This document shows, piece after piece, positions 50,842 through 58,321 of a stretch of DNA of 64,000 nt; positions within the stretch are counted from its first letter, which is position 1; every line of letters starts with the position of its first letter. The position numbers and the translations under genes are program-made. The notes below the pieces were generated by a model that was given only the letters and a program-made list of their open reading frames with translations, did not search any database and had not been told where the DNA came from. The stretch is from Candidatus Acididesulfobacter guangdongensis (GTDB lineage: Bacteria; SZUA-79; Acidulodesulfobacterales; Acidulodesulfobacteraceae), in NCBI GenBank assembly GCA_004195045.1, contig SGBC01000003.1:310001-374000 (forward strand), written 5' to 3'.

Positions 50842-50937
50842 GGAAGCGGATAGAGGGCTGGTGCCCCTCGTTGACTTCAAATCAGTCGTCGCCCCCAATA
50901 AGGGCGGGGTGGGTTCGATTCCCATACGCTTCCGCCA
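50842..50937 (+). tRNA. selC: tRNA-Sec (TCA), selenocysteine
   Basis: A 96-base tRNA with the long eight-base acceptor stem GGAAGCGG/CGCTTCC-type typical of bacterial tRNA-Sec. The anticodon loop CTTCAAA has TCA at 50877-50879, and a long variable arm (GTCGCCCCCAATAAGGGCGGGG) and the T arm GGGTTCGATTCCC follow. CCA is encoded. The genome should therefore encode selenoproteins and the SelA, SelB and SelD machinery elsewhere. Confidence 0.95.
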
Positions 50938-51500: not shown

Positions 51501-52379
51501 ATGAAAATAAAATCAGAAGATTTTTTGGTAAAGGAGGGTGATAAAGTTGACCTGTCAAAATGGTCTTCTTATATTGAACCTCCGTATAAATCCAATAAAA
51601 AATACAAAAAACTGCTGGAAGACCACGTATTGCAGCTGAGCGAACTGCAGCAGCTTCACTATGCACGCGGAAAGCATGCAATATTATTGATTTTTCAAGC
51701 TATGGATGCTGCAGGCAAAGACGGTGCTATAAAACATGTAATGTCTGGAATCAATCCGCAAGGATGCCAGGTTTTCAGTTTTAAATCTCCAAGCGCGTCG
51801 GAACTGCAGCATGATTTTCTCTGGCGCACTACGCGTAATTTACCAGAACGCGGACGCATAGGTATTTTCAACCGGTCTTATTACGAGGAAGTTTTAATAG
51901 TACGCGTGCATCCGGATATGCTAATCAATGAGGCAATTTCTGATGGTTCTAACAGTTCTAAAAACTATGCTAAAATATGGCATGAACGCTATCGTTCAAT
52001 AAATGACATGGAAAAACATCTTTACGCCAACGGTACGCATATTATAAAATTTTTTCTTCATTTATCTAAAGAAGAGCAGCGCAAACGTTTTCTGGCGCGA
52101 ATTGACGAACCGGATAAAAACTGGAAATTTAGTATGGCAGATATCAAAGAGCGCAAGTTTTGGGATTCCTACATGAATGCCTATGAAGAATGTCTCAGTA
52201 ATACCAGCACAAAAAAATCGCCATGGTATATTGTTCCCGCCGATGATAAACACACGGCAAGACTTATTGTATCCCAAACACTTCTTGATACTATGAAAGG
52301 ACTGAAAATGTCTTATCCTGAAGTAAGCGAAGAACGTCGCGCCGAATTACTGCTTATTCGTAAAGAACTTGTAAAGTAG
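51501..52379 (+). CDS. ppk2: Polyphosphate kinase 2 family protein
   Basis: A 292-residue PPK2. Walker A is [14 protein letters not shown] (DAAGKDG at 69-75), followed by the Walker B/lid region [18 protein letters not shown] and [31 protein letters not shown]2 enzymes use polyphosphate to phosphorylate nucleotides (class I, II or III); this length and the EPDK segment fit the class I/III group. No Shine-Dalgarno precedes the ATG. The rest of the polyphosphate genes follow 158 bases later behind a Pho-like box. The codon use is GC-richer than in its neighbours. Confidence 0.92.
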
Positions 52380-52420: not shown

Positions 52421-52477
52421 TGTAACAAAAATGTAATAAAATTGTAACACCGTTGTAACATTAAATATGTTTAAATA
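52421..52477 (+). promoter_or_regulatory. Pho-box-like array of four 11-bp-spaced repeats
   Basis: TGTAACA at 52421, TGTAATA at 52432, TGTAACA at 52443 and TGTAACA at 52454: four direct copies at exactly 11-base steps. The PhoB/PhoP pattern is seven-base repeats with four-base AT spacers. A TAAATA at 52472-52477 lies where a -10 should be. It precedes the ppx-ppx'-ppk1 operon, so phosphate limitation is expected to control it. The family of the regulator is inferred from spacing and motif. Confidence 0.75.
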
Positions 52478-52537: not shown

Positions 52538-54076
52538 ATGAAAAATTTAGCGGTAATTGATATCGGAAGCAATTCAATCAGTCTGCAGATTTCAGAAATT
52601 AAAGGAAAATCTTACGATATTATAGAAGATTATAAAGAAACTATAAGAATAGGCGAAGATGTTTTTAAAACAGGGATTATTTCGGAATCTACAATTCAAT
52701 CAATTATGACCGTTTTAGAAAAAATGAAAGTTTTAATAGGTAAAAAAACCGACAAGAAAGAAAAACCGTATATAAGAGCCGTAGCTACGGCTCCTTTCAG
52801 GGATGCCTCAAACAGCAAAGATGTTGTTAATATGGCAAAAGACAAATTTGACATCGATATAGAAGTTATTGACGGAAATGAAGAAGCCAGAATTGTTGAC
52901 CTTTATGCTTCTGCTAATTTTCAGATGAGCAAATTAAACGCTCTTACGGTAGATATAGGCGGCGGCACTTTGGAACTTATTATATCTAAAGAAGGTGAAA
53001 TAACCGACTTGCACAGTATTCCTCTGGGCATGCTAAGATTAAAAAATGATTTTTTAAAAAACAATCCTCCGAAAAACAACGAAATTGAAAAATTAATGAA
53101 ACATATTGAAAAAACGCTCAAAGATGCGGGTATTTATAAAAAAATAAATAAAGATATAGATACTTTAATTTTTACAGGCGGAACTATAACTAATATTGCG
53201 TCTATATACAATAAAAGAGAGCATTTAAGAGACGAAAACGTAAATTTTGTCGATAAAAAATTTATTGAATTTTTTTTAAATGAGCTTAAAGATAAAACAT
53301 TTGAGGAAAGAAATAACATTAAAGGAATAGATACTCAGAGAACCGATATAATACAGCCTGCAGCTTTAATTGCGGAGATGTTGTTAGATAAAACAAATTG
53401 CGACGGTTTTTTTACTATTAAAGGCGGACTCAAAAACGGTTTGACTATCGATACGTTAAATAATCACGGTATAAGGATGCATTTTCAGGAAAATGCCGAC
53501 GTAAGACTTTCACGCATCTTAGAAATAGGCTCTAAATTTTTCTTTGAAGAAGAACACGCGCGTCGGACAGAAAAAATTGCTAAAATACTTTTTATAAAAT
53601 TAAAAGATATTTTAAAATTAAATGAGGAAGATTATAAACTTTTGGAGGCGGCTTCGCTTCTGCATGATGTGGGCAGTTATATTTCTTATTACGACCATCA
53701 TAAACATTCATATTATCTAATAAAAAATTCTGATTTTATAGGATACAGTTCTAATGAAATTAAAATAATAGCTAATATTGCACGCTATCATAGAAAGAGT
53801 TTTCCGAAAAAGAGCCAGAAATGCTATGCGGAACTTTCAAGCAAAAATCAGGAACTTGTTCAAAAACTCTCGGCAATTCTCAGAATAGCAGATGCGCTCG
53901 ATAATTCTCATAAATCGGCTGTTAAAGATATTGATGTGAAAATTGACGACGATTCAATTAAAATTATGTTAAAATCTAATTCAAAAGATGCCGACCTTTC
54001 TTTAGAAATTCAAAGTGCAATGGATAAAAAAAATTTTCTGGAATTTATAGCTAAGAAGGAGGTAACAGTAAAATAA
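52538..54076 (+). CDS. ppx: Exopolyphosphatase / guanosine pentaphosphate phosphohydrolase with HD domain
   Basis: A 512-residue Ppx/GppA. The N-terminal actin-like ATPase half has LAVIDIGSNSISLQI (phosphate-1 loop), AVATAPFRDA, and VDIGGGTLELI (phosphate-2). A second lobe includes IFTGGTITNIA. The C-terminal part is an HD-type domain with LEAASLLHDVGSYISYYDHHKHSYYL and IANIARYHRK. It degrades polyphosphate chains from the end, or hydrolyses pppGpp; the two activities cannot be told apart here. It sits behind the Pho-like box. Its stop overlaps the likely start of the next gene. Confidence 0.92.
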   Translation: MKNLAVIDIGSNSISLQISEIKGKSYDIIEDYKETIRIGEDVFKTGIISESTIQSIMTVLEKMKVLIGKKTDKKEKPYIRAVATAPFRDASNSKDVVNMAKDKFDIDIEVIDGNEEARIVDLYASANFQMSKLNALTVDIGGGTLELIISKEGEITDLHSIPLGMLRLKNDFLKNNPPKNNEIEKLMKHIEKTLKDAGIYKKINKDIDTLIFTGGTITNIASIYNKREHLRDENVNFVDKKFIEFFLNELKDKTFEERNNIKGIDTQRTDIIQPAALIAEMLLDKTNCDGFFTIKGGLKNGLTIDTLNNHGIRMHFQENADVRLSRILEIGSKFFFEEEHARRTEKIAKILFIKLKDILKLNEEDYKLLEAASLLHDVGSYISYYDHHKHSYYLIKNSDFIGYSSNEIKIIANIARYHRKSFPKKSQKCYAELSSKNQELVQKLSAILRIADALDNSHKSAVKDIDVKIDDDSIKIMLKSNSKDADLSLEIQSAMDKKNFLEFIAKKEVTVK

Positions 54077-55872
54077 AAATTAAAAATTTTGCAATTATAA
54101 ATATAAGCACAAGCGCATTTAGGATGCATATAAGCGAATATTCCGGTAAAAAGGAAAGGACGATAGAATATCTTGTAAAATCGCTCCCTCTCGGCAAAGA
54201 TACATTTTCGCACGGTTATATTTCCTTAGATAATATATACAAATCTGTTAAAATTCTGGAAGGATTCGCTAAAAAACTTGACGAATACGATTTATGGAAA
54301 AGCTATAAAGCCCTCTGTACAAGCGGCGTCAGGGAAGCCTTAAATAAATATTTTTTTATTGACTATATCAAAAATAATACCGGTATAGAATTAGAAATCC
54401 TTGAACCGTCCGACGAGATATACCTAAAATACCTCGGCGTCAAACAGGCTATACCTAAAATATCGGCTTATGAAGAAGACGGCATCTTATTTACGAATAT
54501 TTCAAGCGGAAATATATTTATAAATATTCTGAAAAAAGATAAGCTTATGCTTTCAGAAGCCTTTCCGTACGGCAATCTGAGGCTTACGCAGATTTTTAAA
54601 GATGTTCCTTATCAAAAACAGCATAAGGCTTATGAACAGGATATTAACAAAATGGTGCTGACACTGAAAAATATCAGCGTTAAAAAAATAAGCATCCGGC
54701 ATATGATAAGTTCAGGCAGCTCCATAGCAGTTCTTACCGATATGCTCAAACCTAAAAAGGATTCGATAGACAGAAAAGATTTAGAAGCTGCATACAGTCA
54801 GATAAAAGAGCTTAATTTTTATGAAATAACCGAAAAATTTAAATTAAGAGAGCAGCAGGTTGAAATACTGATACCTACATTAATAACTTATTTAAAAATA
54901 ATGGATTTTGCAAAAGTAAAGAAATTTTTGTTTACAAGAAATACTTTCCCCTATTCTATGTCTTTATTTTATTCTAAAACGATAAAAGACCCTGATTTAT
55001 ACAATAGATTTAAAAACACGCTGTATCATATCGGCGAAAAATATTCGTATGATAAAAATCATTCAAAAATTGTAACAAAATTTGCATTAAAACTATTTGA
55101 TAATCTTAAAACAATTCATTCTTTAAAACAAAAAGAAAGAAAGCTGTTAGAGGCGGCTGCCGTTCTGCATGACATAGGCTATATAATTGAAGCAAAAAAT
55201 CATGAGCAGCATTCTTTTAATATCATTAAAACGATAGATTTTCCCGGCATATCAAAAGAGTTTATCGATATGACGGCTTTGATAGTGCTGATGCATAGAG
55301 AAAAGCAAGAAATCTATCAGAACGCAGAGCATGACGGCAATAATTATTTAACAGACAAATTAACAGGCGCTAAAAATAAAAATCAAAATGACTATAAAAA
55401 GCCGGTTTTAGATAATCAGTTTAACAACAATATCCAGAATCAAAATCAACATGTTAATAACGTTAATATTTGCAATAATAGAAGCGTTAATAATAAGAAT
55501 AATAATACTAACTATCATCAAAATTATAAAAATAATTTCGGCTATAATTTCGGTGATTATTACTGGGATTCAAGAGCTATAGGCATAGTCAACGCAGATA
55601 ATACGAATAATCTGCTTTCTAACTTTTCAATTGAAAAAAAATTAATCATATATAAGCTGGCAAGTATTTTAAGAATAGCCGATTCTATGGACGCAAGCCA
55701 TAGCCAGTTTATAGACGATTTTAGTGTAACAATCGATTCAAATTGTATTATAATAAAATCACTGGCTAAAAAATATCCTTATTTAGAATATCTTTCGTTT
55801 TATCAGAAAAGCAATTTGTTTAAGCTGACTTTCGGCGTAAATATTGAATTTGAAACAGATATTTTATTCTAA
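54073..55872 (+). CDS. Degenerate Ppx/GppA paralogue with HD domain and Asn-rich insert; apparent AUA start
   Basis: A 599-residue relative of the preceding protein. Residues KNFAIINISTSAF align with KNLAVIDIGSNSI of the neighbour, and these codons lie upstream of the first ATG (54124). The true start must therefore be upstream: AAGGAGG (54056-54062) is followed after ten bases by ATA at 54073, which overlaps the previous TAA as ATAA. The phosphate-binding loops are lost (DIGSNS becomes NISTSA; DIGGGT becomes NISSGN), so catalysis is unlikely. The HD motif LHDIGY and a later REDSMDASH-like part (IADSMDASHSQF) remain, separated by about 90 Asn-rich residues. Probably a regulatory partner of Ppx or PPK1. 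Confidence 0.75.
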   Translation: MKIKNFAIINISTSAFRMHISEYSGKKERTIEYLVKSLPLGKDTFSHGYISLDNIYKSVKILEGFAKKLDEYDLWKSYKALCTSGVREALNKYFFIDYIKNNTGIELEILEPSDEIYLKYLGVKQAIPKISAYEEDGILFTNISSGNIFINILKKDKLMLSEAFPYGNLRLTQIFKDVPYQKQHKAYEQDINKMVLTLKNISVKKISIRHMISSGSSIAVLTDMLKPKKDSIDRKDLEAAYSQIKELNFYEITEKFKLREQQVEILIPTLITYLKIMDFAKVKKFLFTRNTFPYSMSLFYSKTIKDPDLYNRFKNTLYHIGEKYSYDKNHSKIVTKFALKLFDNLKTIHSLKQKERKLLEAAAVLHDIGYIIEAKNHEQHSFNIIKTIDFPGISKEFIDMTALIVLMHREKQEIYQNAEHDGNNYLTDKLTGAKNKNQNDYKKPVLDNQFNNNIQNQNQHVNNVNICNNRSVNNKNNNTNYHQNYKNNFGYNFGDYYWDSRAIGIVNADNTNNLLSNFSIEKKLIIYKLASILRIADSMDASHSQFIDDFSVTIDSNCIIIKSLAKKYPYLEYLSFYQKSNLFKLTFGVNIEFETDILF

Positions 55873-55884
55873 AAAATAAATTTT

Positions 55885-58089
55885 ATGTCGAAAGTAAATT
55901 CAAATTTGCAAAAAAAATCATCTGAATCTTTAAATCTTAATAACTATCCTTTTGTAAATAGGGAAATCAGCTGGCTTTATTTTAACGAAAGAGTATTATC
56001 TAAAGCTGATAGTCAAAATGTCCCCTTATTGGAAAGATTAAAATTTTTATCAATTTTTTCATCAAATCTTGACGAATTCTACATGATAAGGGTTGCAGGC
56101 GTTAAAGAGGTTATAGACGCAGGGTATGCTGTTTTAAAAAGTATTGTTGTTAATGAACCTGCTCCGCCGGAATTGCTTAAGCTTATTAATATATTAGCGC
56201 AGCAGCTTATAGACAAACAGCAGAATATATTTTTGAAATTAGTAAAAACTTTTAAATCTAAAAAAATTGTTTTTATTTTGACGCCAGATGAAATTGGTTC
56301 AGACATAATTGATTTAGCGGAAGAAATATGGCTGCAGGAGATAATGCCCGCAATTTCACCTGTAATTATAGGACCGGCGAAACCATTCCCGTTTGTATCT
56401 AATAAATTAGTCAGTATATTTGCAGAACTGCACAAAGGAGGAAATAAGTATTACGCAATAATTGTATTGGAAAATTTAAAGAGAATATATAAAATTAATT
56501 ATAATAATACATTATACATAATATTTGCCGAAAATATTATACTTAAGTTCATAAACAGGATATTCAGCAGTTATACAATTCAAAATGCTAATACTATGAG
56601 AATTACCAGAAATGCTGATTTTGATATAGCGGAGGATGCCGAAGACCTGTTAGAAACTATAGAATTTGAACTTTCTAAAAGGAAAAAAGGAGATGTTGTC
56701 AGGGTTGAAACCAATTCCGTTTTAGATTCAAACGCTATGTCATTCCTTAAATCAAAATTAGATTTTAGCGATATAGACGTATTAAATATAAAATATACGA
56801 TTGATTTAAGCTGCCTGAGCGAATTAAATATAAACAGAAAGCAATTTTTATATAAACCTTTTAAACAATATTTTCCTTCGGATATCCATCTTAATTCTTC
56901 TATTTTTAAAAGAATTAAAAATAAAGATATTATTTTATACAGACCATACAATAGCTTCAGTATTATTTCAAAATTAGTTGAAATTGCATCGGATGATATT
57001 AACGTAATTGCTATTAAGATGACGCTTTACCGTACAAATAAAGATTCCTCCATTATAAAAAGTCTTATAAATGCGGCTAAAAAAGGGAAACAGGTAAGCA
57101 TTATAATTGAACTTAAAGCCAGATTTGACGAGGAAAAAAATATTGAATGGTCAAAAGTTCTGGAAGATGCAGGATGTATAGTAACATACGGGTTTCTTGA
57201 ATTAAAACTGCATACTAAAAATTTATTAATAGTAAGAAAAGAAAATAAAAAAATTGTCAGATACTGTCATATTTCTACCGGAAATTACAATGAAATAACC
57301 GCTAATATTTACACAGATGTAGATTATTTAACGGCAGACGAACAGATAGGTTCGGATATTACTAACTTATTTAATAGTTTAATGGGATATTCGGAATTTG
57401 GAAATTATAAAAGAATCACTGTTTCTCCCGGGATGATAAGAAACAGATTAATTGAATTAATCGACGGAGAAATTATTAATGCACATAAAGGGTTAAATGC
57501 AAAAATAGTTGTTAAGGTCAATGCTCTTACAGATAAAAAAATTATATTGAAATTATATGAGGCATCAAAGGCGGGCGTAAAAATAATTATGGTCATACGC
57601 GGCATTTGCTGCTTGGTGCCGGGCATAAAAGACATCAGCGAAAATATAATCGTAAAAAGCATGGTAGGTAGGTTCCTTGAACACCCCAGGATATTATATT
57701 TTTATGCGGGAGGAGAAGAAAAAACATTTATTTCTACCGCTGACTGGATGGAAAGAAATATGGACAAAAGAATTGAATTGTTATTAGAAATACAAGATAC
57801 AGAAGCAAAAGAAAAATTAATGACAATTTTAGACTGTAATATGAGGGATAATTATAACTCATGGATACTTGACCAAAGAAGATATGTAAAATATGGCAGG
57901 ACTGCGATGCGTGATGATAAACAGGATGAACTTCACAATAAAATTGCAGAGTTTTATTTAACCGGCGTAAACAAATATAATCTAATAGACGGCGATATTG
58001 CAGATGATATAAAAGAAGTGGAAGAAAAAGAGAAAACTGTTAAGTATTTTGATTGCCAGAATAGATTAGGCGAAATTTTCAAAAATTAA
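55885..58089 (+). CDS. ppk1: Polyphosphate kinase 1
   Basis: A 734-residue PPK1 that polymerises the terminal phosphate of ATP. It has the N-terminal FVNREISWLYFNERVL and IFSSNLDEFYMIRVAGV motifs, then SKLVEIASDDINVIAIKMTLYRT, the phosphorylated His443 in LKLHTKNLL, and His462 in RYCHISTGNYNE. The 19-residue spacing matches E. coli His435 and His454. The ATG is 12 bases after the degenerate ppx gene, in one operon. No strong ribosome site; coupling to the upstream gene is likely. Confidence 0.95.
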   Translation: MSKVNSNLQKKSSESLNLNNYPFVNREISWLYFNERVLSKADSQNVPLLERLKFLSIFSSNLDEFYMIRVAGVKEVIDAGYAVLKSIVVNEPAPPELLKLINILAQQLIDKQQNIFLKLVKTFKSKKIVFILTPDEIGSDIIDLAEEIWLQEIMPAISPVIIGPAKPFPFVSNKLVSIFAELHKGGNKYYAIIVLENLKRIYKINYNNTLYIIFAENIILKFINRIFSSYTIQNANTMRITRNADFDIAEDAEDLLETIEFELSKRKKGDVVRVETNSVLDSNAMSFLKSKLDFSDIDVLNIKYTIDLSCLSELNINRKQFLYKPFKQYFPSDIHLNSSIFKRIKNKDIILYRPYNSFSIISKLVEIASDDINVIAIKMTLYRTNKDSSIIKSLINAAKKGKQVSIIIELKARFDEEKNIEWSKVLEDAGCIVTYGFLELKLHTKNLLIVRKENKKIVRYCHISTGNYNEITANIYTDVDYLTADEQIGSDITNLFNSLMGYSEFGNYKRITVSPGMIRNRLIELIDGEIINAHKGLNAKIVVKVNALTDKKIILKLYEASKAGVKIIMVIRGICCLVPGIKDISENIIVKSMVGRFLEHPRILYFYAGGEEKTFISTADWMERNMDKRIELLLEIQDTEAKEKLMTILDCNMRDNYNSWILDQRRYVKYGRTAMRDDKQDELHNKIAEFYLTGVNKYNLIDGDIADDIKEVEEKEKTVKYFDCQNRLGEIFKN

Positions 58090-58152: not shown

Positions 58153-58321
58153 GGAAAAGGTGTCAGATTGGAAAAGGTGTCAGATTAATTTTTTTTGCAA
58201 ATATTTTCTTTGTTAATTGAACTATTCCATATGCAAAAAAAATAAAATCTGACACCTTTTCCTAATATTTTGCTTAACCGAGCAAAGAAATGCATAAATA
58301 TTTTCTATTGCAGGATTAAGG
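58153..58321. repeat. Palindromic dispersed repeat, copy C
   Basis: The inner palindrome is complete (58170-58262), and its 17-base left end GGAAAAGGTGTCAGATT is duplicated in tandem (58153-58169 and 58170-58186). The left outer module is missing; the right one is complete and ends CTATTGCAGGATTAAGG (58305-58321). In the remaining gap to the aldolase gene (58322-58494) I see no gene. Confidence 0.85.

Follow-up and report, generated by a model that had tools for sequence, protein, structure and literature searches.

In the 64-kb window analysed here, the whole stretch of DNA under study within a 2.2-Mb genome that is 99 % complete, three genes form an operon: ppx, pseudo-ppx and ppk1. The account that best explains the middle gene, and one that we hold to be probably correct, is that pseudo-ppx is started at an AUA codon within an AUAA stop/start overlap behind a Shine-Dalgarno (SD) sequence, that its translation is coupled to that of ppx, and that its product tunes the balance between Ppx and PPK1.

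The first gene, ppx (52538..54076, plus strand), encodes Ppx1, a catalytic-type exopolyphosphatase with a C-terminal HD domain (PF02541, 4e-43; PF21447, 2e-32). It is followed on the same strand by its partner pseudo-ppx (54073..55872), whose product of 599 aa has the Ppx/GppA fold with the metal site lost and the HD motif intact, and by the third gene, ppk1, for polyphosphate kinase 1 (55885..58089). The order ppx / pseudo-ppx / ppk1 is kept in both this genus and its sister genus. Directly upstream of the operon lies ppk2 (51501-52379), and between the two are four head-to-tail, Pho-box-like TGTAAYA-N4 repeats with an 11-bp period (52421..52460), 78-117 bp 5' of ppx. These repeats, which may be Pho boxes bound by PhoB, are also present in the congener G005. 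Just two other triple repeats were found in the ~1.8 Mb sampled, and similar triples lie in L110 and L111. A scan for promoters and terminators gave a signal near chance level and was set aside.

From the sequence alone it had been proposed that the AUA at 54073 overlaps the upstream stop as AUAA, and this is indeed the arrangement of the junction (54073..54076, plus strand), with ATA at 54073-54075 and the TAA of ppx at 54074-54076. Inside the 3' end of ppx stands a strong SD, AAGGAGGT, containing AAGGAGG(T) (54056..54063, plus strand; duplex -13.1 kcal/mol), at a spacing of 10 nt from the AUA, the genome's own range being ~4-12. The SD, stop and junction statistics were drawn from ~1.8 of the 2.2 Mb, sampled as separate stretches, and in this sample 1.1 % of 549 ATG genes exceed -13.1 kcal/mol, which places the SD of pseudo-ppx in the top 1 %. 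Of 649 sampled gene 3' ends, two have so strong an anti-SD duplex (-13 kcal/mol or below) just 5' of the stop; since the other of the two serves an adjacent ATG, the SD of pseudo-ppx is not a chance match. The pseudo-ppx frame is open on the upstream side as far as a stop at 54052, and it has no ATG, GTG or TTG before the ATG at 54124 (Met18); between these two points it reads EGGNSK-IKIKNFAIINISTSAFR-M. No canonical start in this frame that could use the SD was found within 60 nt.

The claim that translation must begin before the first ATG is well supported. Across the six congeners, codons 6-17 have 1, 0 and 11 inferred changes at codon positions 1, 2 and 3 (p = 5e-5; counted on an assumed tree, with the genomes grouped by protein identity), and the 60 nt on the 5' side, read in the pseudo-ppx frame, have 19, 9 and 7, which is the pattern of the ppx frame. 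The third-position bias switches frame at the AUA. Between G000 and G002, 8 nucleotide differences in codons 6-17 lead to one amino-acid change, which random placement matches in 5e-5 of trials. The AlphaFold2 model of pseudo-Ppx, built from 18 sequences, places beta-1 at residues 5-11 and beta-2 at 15-24, with mean pLDDT of 78 for residues 1-10 and 94 for residues 11-20; beta-1 and part of beta-2 precede Met18, and a start there would therefore lose beta-1. Annotation at the ATG would cut the first 17 residues of pseudo-Ppx, and near-cognate starts in general are easily mis-annotated.

Six genomes of the genus carry pseudo-ppx (G000, G002, G003, G004, G005 and G006), with protein identities of 69-96 % (94-96 % for G000, G003 and G005, 74 % for G002 and G006, and 69 % for G004); in the seventh congener, G001, the contig ends inside ppx. 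ATA stands at the homologous base in all six, the overlap being ATAA in five and ATAG in G004, and an in-frame NTG before codon 18 is found in none of them. Of the codons near the SD that could serve as a start, the AUA at 54073 alone is common to all six. The SD duplex amounts to -13.1, -13.0 and -15.5 kcal/mol in G000, G003 and G005, and to -9.2 in G002 and G004; the SD of the diverged congeners is imperfect (AAGGCAGGT) and ranks in the top 17 % of the genome sample. All nine sister-genus orthologues (35-38 % identity) have ATG, within ATGA, at the same aligned position, and no SD was detected in the three members tested (~0 kcal/mol). To the question of whether relatives keep AUA, AUU or AUG here, the answer is thus AUA within the genus and AUG in its sister. 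The identity of the ATA alone is weak evidence, because any final NNA codon followed by TAA or TAG yields ATA, and NNA is the last codon in 46 % of the sampled genes (stops are TAA in 68 % and TGA in 19 %). The weight therefore lies on the coding evidence, the absent NTG, the SD and the sister-genus ATG. Kept throughout the congeners, and replacing the sister-genus AUG at the same site, the AUA at 54073 is the best-supported candidate start. Since the sister genus has ATGA without an SD and the AUA genes have strong SDs, an ancestral AUGA without an SD was probably converted to AUAA with the SD as compensation; a single G-to-A change would turn both AUG into AUA and UGA into UAA.

A sequencing error at the junction was ruled out, as six separate assemblies agree. 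AUAA or AUAG was also considered as a common signal and was not upheld for the sampled genome, because similar junctions have an in-frame ATG or GTG just upstream or a few codons downstream; the uvrA-like gene in L122 and the nfo-like gene in L072 are look-alikes of this kind with an upstream ATG or GTG. A coding-potential scan, too weak to exclude other near-cognate starts, flagged prfB, a known frameshift gene. No AUAA overlap is described in the open-licence papers covered.

Among the other ways in which the upstream codons could come to be translated, a programmed -1 frameshift deserves the closest attention, although we consider it improbable. A ribosome holding AAA in its P site and UAA in its A site would slip back by one base on A AAA and yield a Ppx-pseudoPpx fusion, stimulated by the internal SD. 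The relative frame is indeed -1, and all six congeners share TAAAATA[AG]. Internal SDs stimulate frameshifting, and here AAGGAGGT ends 6 nt 5' of A AAA, so that one feature of dnaX-type frameshifting, an SD upstream of the slip site, is present. The genome's own prfB has the usual frameshift layout. However, GTA AAA TAA permits a one-codon slip only and offers no tandem X XXY YYZ heptamer, and the 3' stem-loop of the dnaX type is also missing, as no stable stem-loop was found around the site (100-nt folds of -6 to -11 kcal/mol). Moreover, the fused ORF is absent from all relatives, and the sister genus independently starts with AUG at the same site. As a separate observation, a prfB-like frame on the minus strand of L091 (~15270) has no NTG at its opening, as the usual internal frameshift site ahead of it would predict.

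A start at the AUG at 54124, with the upstream codons as a remnant, is still harder to accept, and we judge it very unlikely: Met18 is conserved within the genus, but it is Cys in the sister genus, the strong SD lies ~60 nt away, codons 6-17 are conserved in a coding fashion, and beta-1 with part of beta-2 would be removed. Least probable of all is the use of another near-cognate codon such as the AUU at 54079. This codon had been overlooked when AUA was called the only candidate at a proper distance from the SD, and in the alignment it falls exactly on Met1 of the neighbouring Ppx, (I)KNFAIINIS matching MKNLAVIDIGS without a gap. Its SD spacing is 16 nt, however, and the codon is GTA or GAA in G002, G006 and G004; the AUU was rejected as a start for this lack of conservation. 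AUA is not the sole near-cognate codon in reach, yet it is the conserved one.

The gene infC of the same genus, a classic near-cognate-start gene, offers a parallel within these genomes. It has no ATG, GTG or TTG start in any of the seven congeners (L147, which is G000:C1:56865-57368, and L148-L153), and the codons ATT AAT ATC come after a GAGAGG or GCGAGG motif; judged by this layout, its start in the congeners must be the ATT or the ATC behind the GAGAGG/GCGAGG SD. In Staphylococcus aureus, infC, ccpN and citZ start at AUA, and extended SDs direct the AUA start of infC and ccpN (PMC13009471). Reporters for ccpN and citZ gave ~10-30 % of AUG output from AUA, and ccpN up to 30 % in rich medium (PMC13009471), while E. 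coli reporters gave up to ~1 % (Hecht et al., as cited in PMC12864459). Pseudo-ppx resembles these S. aureus genes in its AUA start, in the conservation of a non-canonical start (ccpN) and in its strong or extended SD (infC, ccpN). It differs in that its AUA overlaps a stop as AUAA/AUAG and replaces a sister-genus AUGA, whereas the passages of PMC13009471 considered do not present the S. aureus genes as overlapping a stop. The lack of a canonical start, a conserved AUA and a strong SD are all found at pseudo-ppx, which on the features compared fits among the genes whose AUA start is compensated by an SD.

The junction also resembles the NTGA overlaps of -4 nt associated with termination-reinitiation (PMC12548453, PMC10666635), in that two operon genes of related function, read in the same direction, overlap by 4 nt in the -1 frame. 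In a review the -4 overlap is given as NTGA (PMC12548453), and genes for subunits of complexes are over-represented among short overlaps (PMC10666635). The 4-nt overlap is present throughout (ATAA, ATAG in G004 and ATGA in the sister genus), but the NTG start and TGA stop of that class are absent from the six congeners, where AUA with UAA or UAG and a strong SD are found instead.

The pseudo-Ppx protein belongs to the Ppx/GppA family by two Pfam matches above the cut-off, PF02541 (Ppx-GppA, 2e-16) and PF21447 (Ppx-GppA_III, 3e-20), and its top Foldseek matches are E. coli GppA and PPX (E ~1e-23), while among NCBIfam models exopolyphosphatase is matched below the cut-off only. In a column-by-column comparison, all active-site residues are present in 15 of 15 active-type Ppx proteins. 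Both metal ligands are lost in all 15 pseudo-Ppx orthologues, with E. coli D143 replaced by N and E150 by F or G (Asp139 and Glu146 of Ppx1), and the catalytic Glu (E. coli E121; Ppx1 Glu116) and Arg (Ppx1 Arg88) are kept in every one. The loss of the ligands supports the earlier view of a dead actin-like domain, which had missed the retained Glu and Arg. The same view held that the phosphate loops are lost, and this stands in part. Loop 2 (54496..54513, plus strand) reads NISSGN in place of DIGGGT and is mostly lost in all 15 orthologues (N[IL]SSGN), so that relatives with full loops, which would have spoken against it, were not seen. Loop 1 (54100..54117, plus strand) reads NISTSA in place of DIGSNS and is lost in this genus (D8 to N), but in the sister genus it is merely altered (DIGAGS). 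Because N[IL]SSGN is itself conserved, pseudo-Ppx looks like a maintained pseudo-enzyme rather than a case of decay, and since the actin-like part has no Mg/Mn site, hydrolysis of polyphosphate by pseudo-Ppx is not predicted. Metal binding has been assigned to the Asp/Glu pair in M. tuberculosis (PMC3411833); E. coli Ppx mutated at the equivalents of E121, D143 and E150 retains residual activity (PMC5417653).

Compared with the exopolyphosphatases of the family (E. coli PPX, 2flo and 1u6z; D. radiodurans, 8jgo), pseudo-Ppx shares the fold, the Pfam families and the catalytic Glu and Arg, but both metal ligands and most phosphate-loop residues are replaced, and its clade has an Asn-rich insertion. 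This insertion, 98 residues long (413-510; 55309..55602, plus strand), lies in the HD domain, is disordered (pLDDT < 50) and occurs only in G000, G003 and G005 among the orthologues aligned. Relatives without the enzymatic role are known: M. tuberculosis Rv1026 has no exopolyphosphatase activity (PMC3411833), and yeast Rtg2p acts as a regulator (PMC5417653). Rv1026 keeps the metal-binding Asp and Glu, however, and Rtg2p keeps the loop-2 Asp, whereas pseudo-Ppx has lost both D143 and E150 and its gene shares an operon with those of PPK1 and an active-type Ppx.

As the sequence-only reading had noted, the HD motif is kept, with the dyad His366-Asp367 in the C-terminal domain (55168..55173, plus strand). 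A separate question from that of the start codon is whether pseudo-Ppx, rather than being a dead regulator, could work as an HD-domain phosphohydrolase, its actin-like part just binding polyphosphate or nucleotide. In favour of this, Ppx and pseudo-Ppx share the HD set (His330, His366-Asp367, His408 and Asp537) without variation, but because the active Ppx has the same residues they do not separate the two proteins, and further histidines of the HD region are lost in the sister-genus partners. We therefore think such a function unlikely.

A link between the three proteins is also seen in their distribution. Of 30 family genomes, 15 encode PPK1, and pseudo-Ppx and the long HD-type Ppx occur in precisely this set, with the same gene order in 14; in G027 the genes sit at contig ends. 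The remaining 15, among which G001 is counted with its ppx cut at a contig end, have neither pseudo-Ppx nor PPK1, and nearly all have a separate short Ppx. Although the 30 genomes include incomplete ones and are not independent of one another, the set is patchy within the sister genus, so that its co-occurrence reflects more than shared ancestry. The perfect co-occurrence supports a functional link of Ppx, pseudo-Ppx and PPK1; the regulatory complex for polyphosphate length that had been proposed for the three may underlie it. A third, short Ppx-like gene (G000:C3:56583-57455) is found in nearly all family members, independent of PPK1.

In the favoured account, AUA initiation coupled to ppx, pseudo-ppx would be started at the overlapping AUA either by ribosomes that terminate ppx at the UAA or by new 30S subunits that the strong SD just 5' of it retains; we infer both the initiation and its coupling to termination. 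The SD would keep initiation at AUA possible, and the likely effect would be a low, ppx-dependent output of pseudo-Ppx, which most likely would pair with the active Ppx or bind polyphosphate and in this way shift the relation of Ppx to PPK1. A more tentative extension, which we put forward as a possibility with the chances against it, is that AUAA is a working stop/start coupling signal derived from AUGA, that the SD-rescued near-cognate start sets a low pseudo-Ppx dose dependent on initiation factors and growth, and that the state of initiation would thereby control polyphosphate turnover via the Ppx:pseudo-Ppx ratio. Few conserved AUA starts are known, and the step from AUGA without an SD to AUAA with a strong one can be traced between sister genera, making start-codon attenuation in coupled genes directly testable. 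The conserved pseudo-exopolyphosphatase, strictly associated with PPK1 and Ppx, may control polyphosphate metabolism as a subunit that has so far gone unrecognised.

Some minor features of the region were also recorded. A spacer of ~200-240 bp separates pseudo-ppx from ppk1 in G003 and G005 (L038, L039) and is missing in the window. Beyond ppk1, at 58153-58262, GGAAAAGGTGTCAGATT occurs twice in tandem, followed by an inverted copy, AATCTGACACCTTTTCC; this array looks like the remnant of a small mobile element. Upstream of ppk2, a tRNA-SeC gene with the anticodon TCA (50842-50937) suggests the use of selenocysteine.
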